Shown here: positions 42,035-49,308 of the stretch, one piece after another | How positions within the stretch are numbered: the stretch's first letter is position 1 | Layout of the letters: the number at the start of each line of letters is the position of its first letter | Assembly (NCBI GenBank): GCA_020851035.1 | Contig: JADZDM010000001.1 | Span: 124,001 to 188,000 of the forward strand | Direction of reading: 5' to 3' | Length of the DNA: 64,000 nucleotides | From: Gemmatimonadaceae bacterium | GTDB taxonomy: Bacteria; Gemmatimonadota; Gemmatimonadetes; Gemmatimonadales; Gemmatimonadaceae | Translations under genes and position numbers: made by a program | The notes under the pieces: model-generated | The model's input: the letters and a program-made list of their open reading frames with translations, nothing else | The model's database searches: none | Told to the model about the DNA's origin: nothing

Positions 42035-43456
42035 TCAGGGCAGAGGAGCCGGTGCCGCCGCCATGCGCTGCACGAGCTGCTCCCAGAAGGCCACCGAGAC
42101 GTGGAACGCCTCGACGCCGATCCGCTCGTCGCGACCGTGGGCCCGCGACGGCTCACCCTGCTCGGAGGCCAGTCCCGAGACGCCGTAGGTCGGGATGCCG
42201 GCGTTCCGCGTGAAGAGGCCGTCGGTGGCCCCGGTGCTCATTTCGGGCACGACCGGTGCGCCGCCGAAGAATGCGGCCGACAGCGCCCGCATCGTGCCCA
42301 TCACGTCAGGGCGCAGCGCCGACGGCGGGGATGGCACGACCTCGCGGGTGCGACTGACCTTCACCTTCGGCCCCACCACGCGCTGCAGCACGGCCATCAC
42401 CGAGTCCACCGGCTCATCGGGCAGCATGCGGCAGTTCACGAGTGCGGTGGCACGCTGCGGCAGCGCGTTGTCCGCGTGGCCACCCGACAGGCGCGTGGCC
42501 ACACACGTGGTCCGCAGCACGGAATTGAACCACGGGTTGCCTGCGGACAGTGCGGCCACGCTGGCAGAGTCGGTCGCACCCGCCGCCACACGGCGCATCA
42601 GCGCCGCCAGCTCGGGCGCCTGTGACGCCGCCGATTCACGGAAGTAGCCTGCCGAGATCTCCGTCAGTCGCGCCGGAAAGCTGAAGGCGCCCAGGCGCGA
42701 AAGGCCGGCGGCGAGTTCGTAGATCGCGTTGTCGGCGCGGGGCACCGAGCTGTGCCCGCCCGGGTTCGTCGACTCGAGGTGGAAGTCCGCATACACCTTC
42801 TCGGCGGCCTGCATCCCCACACCGACGGCCTTCCCCTGTTCGGTGGCGACACCGCCGGCATCGGTGTTCAGCGCCAGCTCCGCCTCGCGCAGCGGTGCAT
42901 GGTGCTCCAGCAGCCACCGGATCGAGCGACCATCCGTTTCCTCGTCGGCACTGAGCACGGCGATGATGTCACGGTCGGGCACCCAGCCCGCGCGCTTCCA
43001 GCGCACGAAGGTCGCGACGATCGCGGCCAGGCCGGCCTTGTTGTCGTCCACGCCGCGGCCGTAGTACCAGCCGTCGGTCTCGCCGAAGGTGAACGGCGGC
43101 CGCGACCAGTCGCTCGCCAGCGCCGGCACCACGTCCATGTGCGCCATGACCAGGATCGGCTTCCGCCCCGACGCGCGGCCGCGGTACCGCACCACCAGCG
43201 AAGTGAGCTCGGCGCTTGGCCCCATGAGCTGCACGTCGGCCGCCGCGAAGCCGGCCGCGCGCAGGCGTCGTGCGACCAACCCGGCCAGCCGCGGCACCCC
43301 CGCCGTGTTGCTCGACGAATTCACGTTCACGAGTTCCGCGAGGATCGCACGTTCCTCGGCGCGATGGCGGGCAGCGGGCGTGGCGGACTGCGCGCAGAGC
43401 AGCGCCGTCGAGCACGCGAGCAGGGCGAGCGTGCGGGACGCGGCGGTGAGTGTCAT
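42035..43456 (-). CDS. Exported M20-family metallopeptidase
   Basis: This 473-residue zinc peptidase has a signal peptide (ALLACSTALLCAQS). The two-metal ligands appear in order: AHMDVVP, GRGVDDNKAG, ADEETDG, NTDAGG, and a C-terminal His region near EPSRAHGRDERI. The dimerisation domain is inserted at about 215-335. M20 members are aminoacylases, carboxypeptidases or dipeptidases, and substrate is not predictable here. Its ATG overlaps the stop of the polyphosphate-glucokinase-like gene by 4 bases (43453-43456), so the two are coupled. Confidence 0.88.
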   Translation of the reverse strand: MTLTAASRTLALLACSTALLCAQSATPAARHRAEERAILAELVNVNSSSNTAGVPRLAGLVARRLRAAGFAAADVQLMGPSAELTSLVVRYRGRASGRKPILVMAHMDVVPALASDWSRPPFTFGETDGWYYGRGVDDNKAGLAAIVATFVRWKRAGWVPDRDIIAVLSADEETDGRSIRWLLEHHAPLREAELALNTDAGGVATEQGKAVGVGMQAAEKVYADFHLESTNPGGHSSVPRADNAIYELAAGLSRLGAFSFPARLTEISAGYFRESAASQAPELAALMRRVAAGATDSASVAALSAGNPWFNSVLRTTCVATRLSGGHADNALPQRATALVNCRMLPDEPVDSVMAVLQRVVGPKVKVSRTREVVPSPPSALRPDVMGTMRALSAAFFGGAPVVPEMSTGATDGLFTRNAGIPTYGVSGLASEQGEPSRAHGRDERIGVEAFHVSVAFWEQLVQRMAAAPAPLP

Positions 43457-44478
43457 GAGGATCGTCGCTTGGGTGACCCGGGGACCTTCCGCCGGGTGGC
43501 CTGCTTCACTGCCGTGGCCGGTGCCTGCTTCGCCGGTGCCTTCTTTTCAGCGCCTCTCTTCGTGGGCGCCTTCCTCACCGTCTTCCTCACTGCTTTCTTC
43601 GCCGCTGTCTTCGCCGCTGTCTTCGCCGCTTTCTTCGCTGCTTTCCTTGCCGCTTTCTTCGCCACTTTCTTCACCGCCTTCCTCGGTGACTGCGTCGATG
43701 CCGGCCGGGTGCGTGGCGACTTCGCGCGCCGCGCCGCCGCGGACTGCGCGGGTCCGGCCACACTCGCCGGCGCGCCGGCAATGGCGGCCGTGCCGGCATC
43801 GGTGAATTCCACCGGCGTCGATTCGGCGGTGCGCTCCCAGAGTCGCACGCCACCCTGGATGGCGTTCTCGTTCGAGCCGCGGGTGGCGGCATCGGGCAGG
43901 TGCACGAGCTTGCGTGCATTGCCGCCGCCCAGCACGATGCCATCGCAGAGCAGTGCGGCGCGGAACAGGTCGCAGATCTTGTGGACGTGCCGCTCCCACT
44001 TCTCGTCGCCGAGGCGCGCCAGGCCGGCATCACCGATGTACTCCTCGTAGCTCTTGCCCTTGCGGTACGGCAGGTGTGCCAGCTCCAGCGGCTCCACGTG
44101 CCAGTCCTCGACGATCGCATTCCCGAGTCCGGTGCCCAGCCCCAGGAAGAGCATGCGGCCGCCGGCGTAGCTGCCGAGTGCCTGCATGGCGGCGTCGTTG
44201 ATGATCCGCACCGGCTTGCCGAAGGCCTTCTGGAAGTCGAAGGTGATCCAGCCACCGGCGATGTTGATCGGCTCGCGGTACGGGCGGTTGTCCTTCACCG
44301 GGCCGGGATAGCCGAGGGAGATGGCCTCGAAATCCCAGTCCTTCGTGAGCTGCAGGACCCCGCGCACCATGTCGGCCGCGGTCATGGTGGGGCCGGACGG
44401 GATGCGATGGGTGACGCGGTCCCACGATCCGGCAACCTTGATGTGGGTACCGCCGACATCGATGACGAGGATTCTCAC
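43453..44478 (-). CDS. ppgK: Polyphosphate-glucokinase-like ROK protein with Lys/Ala-rich tail
   Basis: This 341-residue protein has a ROK/PPGK catalytic part (about 1-240). It opens [15 protein letters not shown] and has [32 protein letters not shown] and an [12 protein letters not shown] segment, as in polyphosphate- or ATP-dependent glucokinases. The last 95 residues are a Lys/Ala/Arg-rich tail of KKA/KAA repeats, like histone H1 or HU tails. GTG 44478 is preferred: GGAG sits 9 bases ahead. ATG 44508 is an alternative with no ribosome site. It is upstream of, and overlaps, the M20 gene. Confidence 0.82.
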
Positions 44479-45660: not shown

Positions 45661-46782
45661 TCAGCCGGTGAGTGCGTCGCCCGCACCGGCGCTGCGCTCA
45701 CCGTACTGTCCGGCATACGCCACCTTCCAGCGCTGCACCCGCGACAGCACGTCCTCGACGGTGATCCGCGGCAGGCGATCGAGGCGGTTCTCCATGCTGA
45801 TCGGGTAATCCTCGCCCGGTTCGCCGTAGGCGTCGATCATCAGGTCGTGGAACTTCCGGTAGGGCCCGACGCGCTTCGGGTTCGAGTAGCCGATGAGGCT
45901 CACCACGGGGCGGTCCAGCGCGACGGTGATGTGAAGCGGACCCGTGTCCGGGCTCAGCACCAGGGCGGCGCCATCGATGAGCTGCACGAGCCCGCGCAGG
46001 CCGCTGCCGAGCGCACTCACCACCGGCACGCGTGCGGCCTGCATGATGGTGCGCTCGGCCGCCAGCTCGCGGTCGGACCGGCCACCCACGAGCACCGGTT
46101 GCAGCCCGAAGTCGCTGTGCAGCACGTTGCACACCTCGGCCCATCGTGCCGGGAGCCAGTCCTTCTGTGTCTTGCTGGTGGCCACCACGATCGGCGCGAT
46201 CGGCCGGTCGAACACGCGCAGCCGCTCGCGCTGCTGTCCCCGCTCGTGCGGCCAGGGCCCCAGGTTCCACACCGGCGCACCATGCGGCACGCCCAGCGCG
46301 TCGAGGAACTCGAGGTACTGGTCCTGCACGTGCTGCATCGGGTGCGGCGGCACCTGCGCGTTGGTGAACACCCAGTTCATGTCACGTGCCCGCGCCATGT
46401 CGAAGCCGAGCTTCACCGGCGCCTTCACCATGCGCGTGATCATGCCCGCCTTGAGGTACACCTGCAGCGCCAGTGCCACGTCGAATCGCCGGGTGGACAG
46501 CTGGCGCCGGATGTCGTTGAAGGCGCGCAGCCCGTTGCCACGCTCGAACAGCAGGATGTCGCTGATGTCGGGATGGCCGCGCACGAGCGTCGCCGGGCCG
46601 GGCTGCAGGATCCACGTGACACGCGCATCGGGCCGGTGGCGCCGGAGTGCCGTGAGCACGGGCAGGACATGCACCGCATCACCCACGGCACTCATCATCA
46701 CGATGCAGATCCGGTCCAGCGACGCACGCACGGTGGCGGGCCGCGCGGCGGGGGCGACGGTGGTCGCCGCGCCGTCAGCCAC
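45661..46782 (-). CDS. GT9 heptosyltransferase-type LPS glycosyltransferase
   Basis: This 373-residue glycosyltransferase of family 9 has the N-terminal Rossmann signature RICIVMMSAVGDAVHVLPVL, then LALQVYLKAG. The C-terminal domain shows VVATSKTQKDWLPARW, SALGSGLRGLVQLIDGA and LSPDTGPLHITVALDRP. These enzymes add heptose or similar sugars to the lipid A core at the inner membrane's cytosolic face. It overlaps the upstream kinase gene by 8 bases and is the last of three overlapping genes that begin with trpE. The donor sugar is not predictable. Confidence 0.88.
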   Translation of the reverse strand: MADGAATTVAPAARPATVRASLDRICIVMMSAVGDAVHVLPVLTALRRHRPDARVTWILQPGPATLVRGHPDISDILLFERGNGLRAFNDIRRQLSTRRFDVALALQVYLKAGMITRMVKAPVKLGFDMARARDMNWVFTNAQVPPHPMQHVQDQYLEFLDALGVPHGAPVWNLGPWPHERGQQRERLRVFDRPIAPIVVATSKTQKDWLPARWAEVCNVLHSDFGLQPVLVGGRSDRELAAERTIMQAARVPVVSALGSGLRGLVQLIDGAALVLSPDTGPLHITVALDRPVVSLIGYSNPKRVGPYRKFHDLMIDAYGEPGEDYPISMENRLDRLPRITVEDVLSRVQRWKVAYAGQYGERSAGAGDALTG

Positions 46783-47818
46783 CGAGGCGCTCGATGAGCC
46801 TGGCGAAGCCGGGACCGGGCGTCTTCTCCTGCCACTTGCGCGCCGAGCGCACCAGGCGCGCCACGTTCATCCACTCGGCCTTCTTCTCGGCGAACCTCAG
46901 CGTGTCCACGTCGAGCACGTAGGCCAGCTGCCGTCCCGATGGCATGGCCACCGCCGGTGCCACCGACGGCTCCGGCGTGACGGCCGTGGACTCGGTCACC
47001 TCGCCGTCCGGGGGCGGCGGCGGCGCATCGGCGTCGCCGGGCGCGCCGTCGGCACGCTCGCCCGCGTCCTCCCGCACCGCCTCCAGCGCTGCCGGAGTCG
47101 ATCGCTGCGGTATCACATCCGCGGGAGGCGCATCGCCGGGCCCGTCGTCCGCGTCCGTCTCCGCCGCGTCGTCATCGGTCGCGATCAGGATGTTCTTGAC
47201 GTTCAGGTCGGGGTGATACGCCCACGTGCGCGCCAGCTTCCGCAGCAGCACGATGGTGGTGTCGATCGCGCGCTCGTGCTCCGCCGGCGCGTCTTCCACC
47301 GAGAGGATCGTGGCCAGGTCTTTGGCGTTGGTGATCTCGCGCGTCACCACGTCGGCCCGCCAGAGCTGGCCGTACATCACCGGATAGAGCACGAAGCCGA
47401 GCACACGCGGGGTGGGGATGCCCACATGCCGCAGCGTCCAGCTGATGCGCAGCTCGTCGGCGGCGCGCGGGTCTCGGAAGACATCGGACGTCACCGAGGC
47501 CAGCAGCCCGCCGTGATGGCTGTGGCGCACCACCACGCTCACCTCCTCGTTCCCCGGCAGCGGCACGCTGTACGCCGTCTGGCGTCCCATCAACGCGCGG
47601 CGCTCGGGGTGCGCTGCCGCCCACTCGTACACACTCGCGTGGCCGAGCAGCATCAGCTCGAAGTACTCCATCGTGCTGCCGTGCGCGACCACCGTGGCAT
47701 CGCGCACCAGCTTCATGGTGTACCCCGAGGGATACATGCCGTCGGGAATCAGGCCCCCGGGAGAGGCGATGGGCGAGCCGGCGAAGGGCGAGACGGCATC
47801 GTGCAGGCTCGACGTCAT
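46775..47818 (-). CDS. LPS core (Kdo/heptose) kinase-like protein with acidic insert in the active site
   Basis: This 347-residue protein resembles the KdkA/WaaP-type lipopolysaccharide kinases. It shows SVVVRHSHHGGLLASV, then a catalytic loop YHPDLNVKNILIA (about residues 200-212) and a metal-binding segment YVLDVDTLRF (about 298-307). Between these two, which are normally within about 15 residues of each other, lies an insert of roughly 88 residues rich in Asp/Ala/Pro/Glu. The ATG at 47818 overlaps the trpE stop (ATGA); the 3' end overlaps the GT9 gene by 8 bases. A phosphotransfer to the inner core is inferred from the family. Confidence 0.75.
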   Translation of the reverse strand: MTSSLHDAVSPFAGSPIASPGGLIPDGMYPSGYTMKLVRDATVVAHGSTMEYFELMLLGHASVYEWAAAHPERRALMGRQTAYSVPLPGNEEVSVVVRHSHHGGLLASVTSDVFRDPRAADELRISWTLRHVGIPTPRVLGFVLYPVMYGQLWRADVVTREITNAKDLATILSVEDAPAEHERAIDTTIVLLRKLARTWAYHPDLNVKNILIATDDDAAETDADDGPGDAPPADVIPQRSTPAALEAVREDAGERADGAPGDADAPPPPPDGEVTESTAVTPEPSVAPAVAMPSGRQLAYVLDVDTLRFAEKKAEWMNVARLVRSARKWQEKTPGPGFARLIERLGG

Positions 47819-49308
47819 GCGCGCACCCGGCCGATCGCGGTGAGCAGCGCGCGGGACTTGTTCTCCGTCTCCAGCCACTCGTGCGCCGGCACCGAGTCGT
47901 AGACGATGCCCGCGCCGACCTGCACGCTGGCCTCGCCACCGGCGATCACGCAGGTGCGGATGGTGATGGCCAGGTCCATGCGCCGGTCGCCGGCGGCGAG
48001 GTAACCCACGGCGCCGGCATACGGGCCGCGGCGCTCGGGCTCGAGCTCGTCGATGATCTGCATCGCCCGCACCTTCGGCGCGCCCGTCATCGTGCCGGCC
48101 GGGAAGGTCGCACGCACGACGTCGAGGGCCGACATGCCGGCCCCCACCTCACCCGTCACCTCGCTCACGAGGTGCAGCACATGCGAGTATCGCTCCACGG
48201 TCATGAACTCCGTCACGCGCACCGTCCCGAAGCGCGCCAGTCGTCCCACGTCGTTACGTCCCAGGTCCACCAGCATCACGTGCTCCGCCCGCTCCTTCTC
48301 GTCCGACGCCAGCTCCGCCGCCAGCCGTGCGTCATCCGCCGCCGTCGTGCCGCGGCGGCGCGTGCCGGCGATCGGGCGGACGGTGACCGTGCCGCCCGCC
48401 AGCCGCACCAGCACCTCCGGCGAACTCCCCACCAGCTCCATGCCGTCGAGCACCAGGTGGTACATGTACGGCGAGGGGTTGAGCGCCCGCAGGGCCCGGT
48501 AGAGCGTGAGCCCGTCGAAGTCGTGCGGCACGGTGATCCGCCGCGCCAGCAGGCACTGGAAACAGTCGCCGGCCACGATGTACTCGCGGATCCGCTCCAC
48601 CGCCGCGCTGAACGCCTCGCGCGTGAAATTACTGCGCCCCTCGGAAATTGGCGCGGTCTCATCCAGCACCAGCGGCGGGAGCGTCGCCGGCCCCTGCAGC
48701 CGTGCGATGGTGTCCTGCACCTCGCCCACGGCCGCCTCCCAGGCGGTCCGGAGCGAGGCGTCGTCCACCGAGTCCACCGGCACCGAGGTCACCACCCGCG
48801 CCTGCGACTTGAGGTTGTCCATGACCACCACCGTGCGGGTGGTGATCCAGAGTGCATCCGGGGTGTCGGTGCCACGCGGCGAGCGCACCGGCAGGTGCTC
48901 GATGTGGCGCACCATGTCGTAGGCGAAGAACCCCACGGCGCCCGCCCAGAAGTCGCCCAGCTCCGGCACCACCACCGGCTCGTAGCGTGAGACCTCCGCG
49001 CGCAGCGACTCGAAGGGGTCCGCCACCGGTTCCGCGCCATGCCAGCCGGCGTCCGGCGTCCAGCGATCCACGGTGTCGTCCCGCAGGCGCCAGGCGGCCC
49101 GCGGCTCGGTGCCGAGGAAGGTGTAGCGGGCCCAGGTCTCGCTCCCGGCCGGTGCGGACTCGAGGAGGAACGCGAACGGCCCGCGCCGGAGCTTCGCGAA
49201 GGCCGAGACGGGCGTGTCGAGATCCAGCAGGCAGTCATGCCAGACCGGCACCAGGCGGCCGGGGGCGGCCATCGCCCGGAAGGCGTCGAACGATGTGACC
49301 AGGGACAC
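47815..49308 (-). CDS. trpE: Anthranilate synthase component I
   Basis: This 497-residue chorismate-using enzyme yields anthranilate for tryptophan. It carries the tryptophan-feedback LLES motif in FAFLLESAPAGSETWARYTF near the N-terminus. The catalytic region has PIAGTRRRG, VDLGRNDVGR, FPAGTMTGAPKVRAM and GAGIVYDS. The LLES motif favours TrpE over PabB. The start used is GTG 49308; no clear ribosome site is seen. No trpG glutaminase gene is nearby. It is first in an overlapping unit with the LPS kinase and a glycosyltransferase, an unusual pairing. A 57-base divergent gap separates it from the outer-membrane protein gene. Confidence 0.9.
   Translation of the reverse strand: MSLVTSFDAFRAMAAPGRLVPVWHDCLLDLDTPVSAFAKLRRGPFAFLLESAPAGSETWARYTFLGTEPRAAWRLRDDTVDRWTPDAGWHGAEPVADPFESLRAEVSRYEPVVVPELGDFWAGAVGFFAYDMVRHIEHLPVRSPRGTDTPDALWITTRTVVVMDNLKSQARVVTSVPVDSVDDASLRTAWEAAVGEVQDTIARLQGPATLPPLVLDETAPISEGRSNFTREAFSAAVERIREYIVAGDCFQCLLARRITVPHDFDGLTLYRALRALNPSPYMYHLVLDGMELVGSSPEVLVRLAGGTVTVRPIAGTRRRGTTAADDARLAAELASDEKERAEHVMLVDLGRNDVGRLARFGTVRVTEFMTVERYSHVLHLVSEVTGEVGAGMSALDVVRATFPAGTMTGAPKVRAMQIIDELEPERRGPYAGAVGYLAAGDRRMDLAITIRTCVIAGGEASVQVGAGIVYDSVPAHEWLETENKSRALLTAIGRVRA

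Follow-up and report, generated by a model that had tools for sequence, protein, structure and literature searches.

A minus-strand gene at 43453-44478 of the window (the whole 64,000-nucleotide stretch of Gemmatimonadaceae DNA that was analysed) encodes a short sugar kinase of the ROK family whose domain is followed by a basic Lys/Ala extension. The tail is real, in frame and unusual for the enzyme family, yet it is specific to one species; local repeat expansion would explain it, and it does not represent a new kind of system. The protein is likely to be a ROK kinase, probably one that phosphorylates glucose, carrying a repeat-expanded tail in a disordered C-terminus, and this tail would be accessory or near-neutral.

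Reading frame and gene junctions

The open reading frame spans 341 amino acids from a GTG start (44476-44478, minus strand) and is uninterrupted from the kinase domain through the tail. The ROK-family kinase domain comprises residues 1-219 (43822-44478, minus strand). Past its last conserved motif, GGVRLW, lies an extension of 127 residues (215-341; 43456-43834, minus strand) that is mostly predicted to be disordered and contains 36 Lys plus Arg and 5 Asp plus Glu, for a net charge of +31. The Lys/Ala/Arg-rich portion makes up about the last 75 of these residues. It is this part that the original prediction, which gave 43453-43745 for the tail, had delimited, while the whole extension begins at about 43834. 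The Lys-richest 50-residue stretch of the tail reaches 34% Lys and 68% Lys plus Ala, whereas the runner-up in Lys content among all six-frame open stretches of the window reaches only 14%, and a chance composition is thus ruled out.

The tail reading frame is supported by its GC pattern and by its end. GC content in the tail is highest at codon position 3 (0.76, against 0.57 and 0.66 at the others), and the TGA stop overlaps the ATG start codon of the M20 peptidase gene that follows, in an ATGA junction (43453-43456, minus strand). This M20 family metallopeptidase gene (42035-43456, minus strand) encodes a signal-like N-terminus and is syntenic in the genus; the junction is an identical ATGA overlap in one sister species and TGATG in the other. 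In the genus of the window the kinase gene sits between the M20 peptidase and a Dtd/Maf pair. This order is kept in three species, and therefore the same locus is being compared.

A frameshift or mis-assembly within the repeat could in principle have created a false tail. The sequence comes from a single draft assembly of 34 contigs, low-complexity repeats are prone to misassembly, and an alternative frame reads as an acidic Glu/Ser/Gly repeat ending at 43547. However, the acidic frame stops about 90 bases short of the gene junction, and it is the frame continuing from the domain that has the highest position-3 GC and that ends, much as in the sister species, at a stop overlapping the start of the next gene. 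An artefact of this kind is highly improbable. The continuous open reading frame, the GC pattern and the ATGA junction bear out the original claim that a Lys/Ala tail is fused in frame to a ROK domain, and the basic extension behind the short kinase domain is confirmed. On the opposite strand, an open reading frame at 42752-44050 (plus strand, 432 amino acids, FFAAF repeats) is an antisense shadow of the Lys/Ala array and not a gene.

A further lineage-specific low-complexity insertion occurs near the kinase gene. The WaaP/Kdo-kinase-like protein encoded at 46775-47878 (minus strand) of the window, in the same neighbourhood, carries an acidic proline-rich insert at about residues 234-298 that is absent in both congeneric species.

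A compact ROK kinase domain and its genomic context

The domain assignment draws on Pfam, on profile matches to 3LM2 and 1WOQ, on AlphaFold2 and on conserved alignment columns. Pfam ROK (PF00480) covers residues 5-125 with 26.6 bits, above its gathering score of 22.9. Among solved structures, the best match is 3LM2, a putative ROK kinase of Agrobacterium tumefaciens (phmmer E 2e-73; profile E=4e-98), which has the same compact ROK domain with 50% identity across the whole domain but, unlike the window protein, no C-terminal extension. The AlphaFold2 model of the kinase domain has a pLDDT of about 95 and matches 3LM2 at about 215 residues in Foldseek (E about 1e-30, TM(target) 0.90) and over 218 residues at 1.8 Å by VIA (Z 31.3). 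A literature search for 3LM2 found no paper.

In the search with a profile of 31 homologues, second place is taken by 1WOQ, the polyphosphate/ATP-glucomannokinase of Arthrobacter sp. KM (E 5e-17, residues 4-195); the remaining ROK kinases match mostly in the N-terminal half only, at E 5e-10 or weaker. By fold comparison alone, 1WOQ (Z 21.2) does not stand out from the other ROK kinases, which score Z 20.9 and below. The pocket motifs DxGGT, NDA, GTGxG, ExxH and a following E are invariant or nearly so in the 31 homologues and align to 1WOQ. Among their residues, N94, D95, E132 and E145 are the same in every homologue and H135 in nearly every one, and these correspond to the N-D, E..H and E residues in the 1WOQ sugar/catalytic pocket. 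The zinc-binding signature of classical ROK kinases, CXCGXXGCXE, is absent from the kinase sequence, as it is from polyphosphate glucokinases (PPGK) such as those of methanotrophs (PMC6406325).

The window domain has 21% identity to 1WOQ and is about 40 residues shorter. NF045942, the NCBIfam PPGK equivalog and the NCBIfam model matched by all 31 subfamily members, has a cut-off of 250 bits and gives the domain 42.8; on this score a standard PPGK was rejected. With about 215 residues, the domain is a compact ROK sugar kinase and belongs to the uncharacterised 3LM2 subfamily. The earlier assignment to a ROK/PPGK domain thus holds as regards the ROK fold and 1WOQ as the nearest characterised solved relative; 'PPGK-like' is a fair label, while strict PPGK identity goes beyond the evidence.

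The gene context of relatives points to a substrate. On plasmids of Pantoea, Allorhizobium and Shinella, the genes for glucan 1,4-alpha-glucosidase, gnd, zwf and the ROK homologue follow one another. At the other Gemmatimonadota loci scanned, the neighbours include glucose-6-phosphate dehydrogenase (G6PD) at two loci and a GH15 glucoamylase at three. Because relatives adjoin glucoamylase and G6PD genes, the most likely reaction is the conversion of glucose to glucose-6-phosphate. The glucoamylase-gnd-zwf-ROK cluster is conserved on Pantoea and Rhizobiaceae plasmids and is likely to be a module leading from glucan to pentose phosphate, its short ROK kinase being uncharacterised. A literature search for a link between 3LM2 and G6PD found nothing.

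Elsewhere, the genome of the window encodes one ordinary full-length ROK kinase, two PPK1 genes and one G6PD gene. Given the two PPK1 genes, the organism probably makes polyphosphate. The G6PD match (G000:C31:16524-17378) contains one in-frame TGA, possibly a frameshift, an assembly error or an edge effect.

Distribution and probable repeat origin of the tail

The kinase gene is found in 41 of 395 Gemmatimonadota genomes (E <= 1e-20). With one genome compared per species, C-termini were read in 39 of the 40 other in-phylum homologues, leaving out a split match in genome G226. None of the 39, congeners included, carries the Lys/Ala tail, and a KAAKKA tail is also absent from three Pseudomonadota homologues. 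The original prediction had held that such a tail is not a standard part of PPGK, which these counts confirm. It had also proposed a search of homologues for the same tail, whose absence from all close homologues was the sequence half of what would speak against a role in binding, and absent it is. Among the species compared, the tail is limited to one, and it is neither a family trait nor part of the conserved catalytic machinery.

The two congeneric species have kinase domains 89% and 85% identical to that of the window protein, with tails of 69 and 128 residues and net charges of +3 and +7. All three proteins share the first dozen or so extension residues (ERxAESTPxEFxD) and diverge beyond them. 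Both sister tails reach a maximum of 3 Lys in 20 residues and the other homologues counted at most 5, compared with 9 in the window protein. Outside the genus the extension measures 0-40 residues, and short basic ends occur in two other genera (23 residues, +8; 21 residues, +4). In all three congeneric species the extension ends in a short basic run (KKRATTRRTT, KRAAVRRPT and KRRSS). Because all three keep an extension with a basic end, selection may weakly favour a basic C-terminus in the genus.

The KAAKKA-type Lys/Ala block (residues 266-302; 43573-43683, minus strand) overlaps for the most part with a 12-bp tandem array (43592-43685, minus strand; 7.8 copies, 82% matches) that codes for most of it. 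A second short tandem repeat, 15 bp × 1.9, lies in the distal tail (43517-43545, minus strand) and encodes 10 residues. Codon use within the 12-bp array is locked to the repeat phase: of its 12 lysines, all five in the second phase are AAA and all seven others AAG (1 in 792 by simple counting), and Lys-Lys is always coded AAG-AAA. AAA is found nowhere in the gene outside the array, and all 10 lysine codons of the kinase domain are AAG. Amino-acid selection alone would not produce such phase-locked use of AAG and AAA; copying of a DNA unit would. The array is diverged yet in frame and without stop codons, and so it is not brand new.

The sister species G001 carries its own tandem repeat, 51 bp × 2.3 and 81% matched, inside its tail. 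Since this repeat is independent of the 12-bp array of the window species, the C-terminus in this genus grows repeatedly by tandem duplication, with a product that differs per species. In the AlphaFold2 model the extension is of low confidence apart from one predicted helix at residues 266-302 (pLDDT about 85-93 in its core). Helix formation is a known tendency of Ala/Lys sequences.

The likely sequence of events starts from a fast-evolving, disordered C-terminal extension carried behind the kinase domain in the genus. In the window species, a 12-bp unit within it would have expanded by tandem duplication or slippage into the present array, which encodes Lys-Lys-Ala-Ala-type tetrapeptides and yields a predicted basic Lys/Ala helix. 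The resulting tail would add at most a generic, non-specific affinity for polyanions (DNA, RNA, polyphosphate), or be close to neutral. Both the slippage origin and the near-neutral or accessory role are probable.

Known Lys/Ala tails and possible roles

The tail is of the histone-H1 type that the original prediction described: it carries Lys/Ala-rich tandem tetrapeptide repeats, the 12-bp array encoding KKAA-type units, as in histone H1-like and AlgP-type tails. In AlgP (AlgR3) of Pseudomonas aeruginosa, too, the basic C-terminal tail consists of Lys/Ala-type tandem repeats of four residues. There, however, KPAA units make up a 154-residue repeat region of net charge +55, and the helical domain that bears it is not known to be an enzyme (PMC9239181), whereas the window protein has a proline-free KKAA array on a kinase. 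No proline-containing KPAA unit occurs in this array, and prolines are confined to the more distal tail.

Low-complexity lysine-rich C-terminal tails are likewise attached to unrelated domains in Actinobacterial TopA, Ku and HupB/HupS and in PhaM/PhaF, where they bind DNA non-specifically (PMC7398561, PMC13052382). The proteins with those tails bind DNA or granules, and the tails recur in their families, in contrast to a tail on a sugar kinase of one species.

The original prediction proposed that the tail holds the substrate. As a functional polyphosphate-binding arm, it would concentrate the donor at the kinase or tether the kinase to polyphosphate granules. Several observations are in keeping with such an arm. 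1WOQ, the nearest characterised solved relative by sequence, is a polyphosphate/ATP kinase, and the two PPK1 genes suggest that the polymer is probably made. The nearest precedent is AlgP, whose Lys/Ala/Pro tail of tandem KPAA units accompanies association with polyphosphate granules and whose C-terminus is a mutational hot spot (PMC9239181). In P. aeruginosa, polyphosphate shifted two proteins that have 9 Lys per 20 residues but not two others that have 5 and 7 (PMC12077175). The tail equals the density of the shifting pair with its own maximum of 9, on a criterion for targets of lysine-polyphosphate modification (KPM) that is drawn from these four proteins (PMC12077175). The published positives contain four consecutive lysines (PMC12077175), however, whereas the tail has KK pairs only and no run of four. 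The family activity moreover does without the tail in the 39 other homologues read, close congeners included; Lys density is low in the sisters and the other homologues counted, the PPGK cut-off is missed, and similar tails in this bacterial family are found mostly on proteins that bind nucleic acid or resemble H1. A polyphosphate arm is therefore unlikely, and a substrate-holding device is unsupported for a tail that is missing from these relatives and coincides with a 12-bp array. A bolder form, in which the 12-bp expansion gave a polyphosphate-using glucose kinase an AlgP-like tail that docks on polyphosphate granules, a tether to its polymeric donor tunable by repeat length, would be very unlikely. 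Pfam finds no match for the tail alone even at E 1, in a low-complexity region where composition filters blunt such searches, and a literature search for a lysine-rich PPGK tail found nothing.

Tethering of the kinase to nucleic acid, at the nucleoid or the ribosome, as Lys/Ala tails on HU, Ku and TopA do, is quite unlikely as well. Lysine-repeat tails of Actinobacterial DNA-binding proteins do bind DNA (PMC7398561), and of the annotated proteins with KAAKKA tails that were read in the bacterial family, most are nucleic-acid binding or H1-like. However, no nucleic-acid role is known for the kinase domain, and the tail is species-specific, with no conservation suggesting selection. Weighing these analogies, any polyanion binding by the tail of the window protein is plausibly generic and incidental, and specificity for polyphosphate is disfavoured.

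Within the Gemmatimonadaceae, KAAKKA tails occur on MutM, on SWIB-domain proteins (N-terminal) and on several H1-like proteins without a Pfam match; those on MutM and SWIB proteins probably act as nucleic-acid tethers. At least one KAAKKA-coding site is present in 117 of 179 family genomes, the richest genus being g22. The genome of the window is not rich in such tails: exact KAAKKA-coding sites number only three in its 5 Mb, of which one is the kinase tail and one lies inside an ABC-type ATPase. A DNA N6/N4-methylase of the same genome (G000:C5:226426-226442) has a short, 11-residue Lys/Ala stretch near its C-terminus.

The kinase illustrates cleanly how a histone-like Lys/Ala tail can arise: a short DNA repeat expands where the C-terminus of an ordinary enzyme evolves fast, and at the same position close relatives have grown different tails. 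If polyanion binding depends on composition alone, slippage could cheaply give enzymes new binding properties. The finding also brings to attention an unassayed ROK subfamily, and this uncharacterised 3LM2 subfamily, tied to glucoamylase and G6PD, is the more useful lead.
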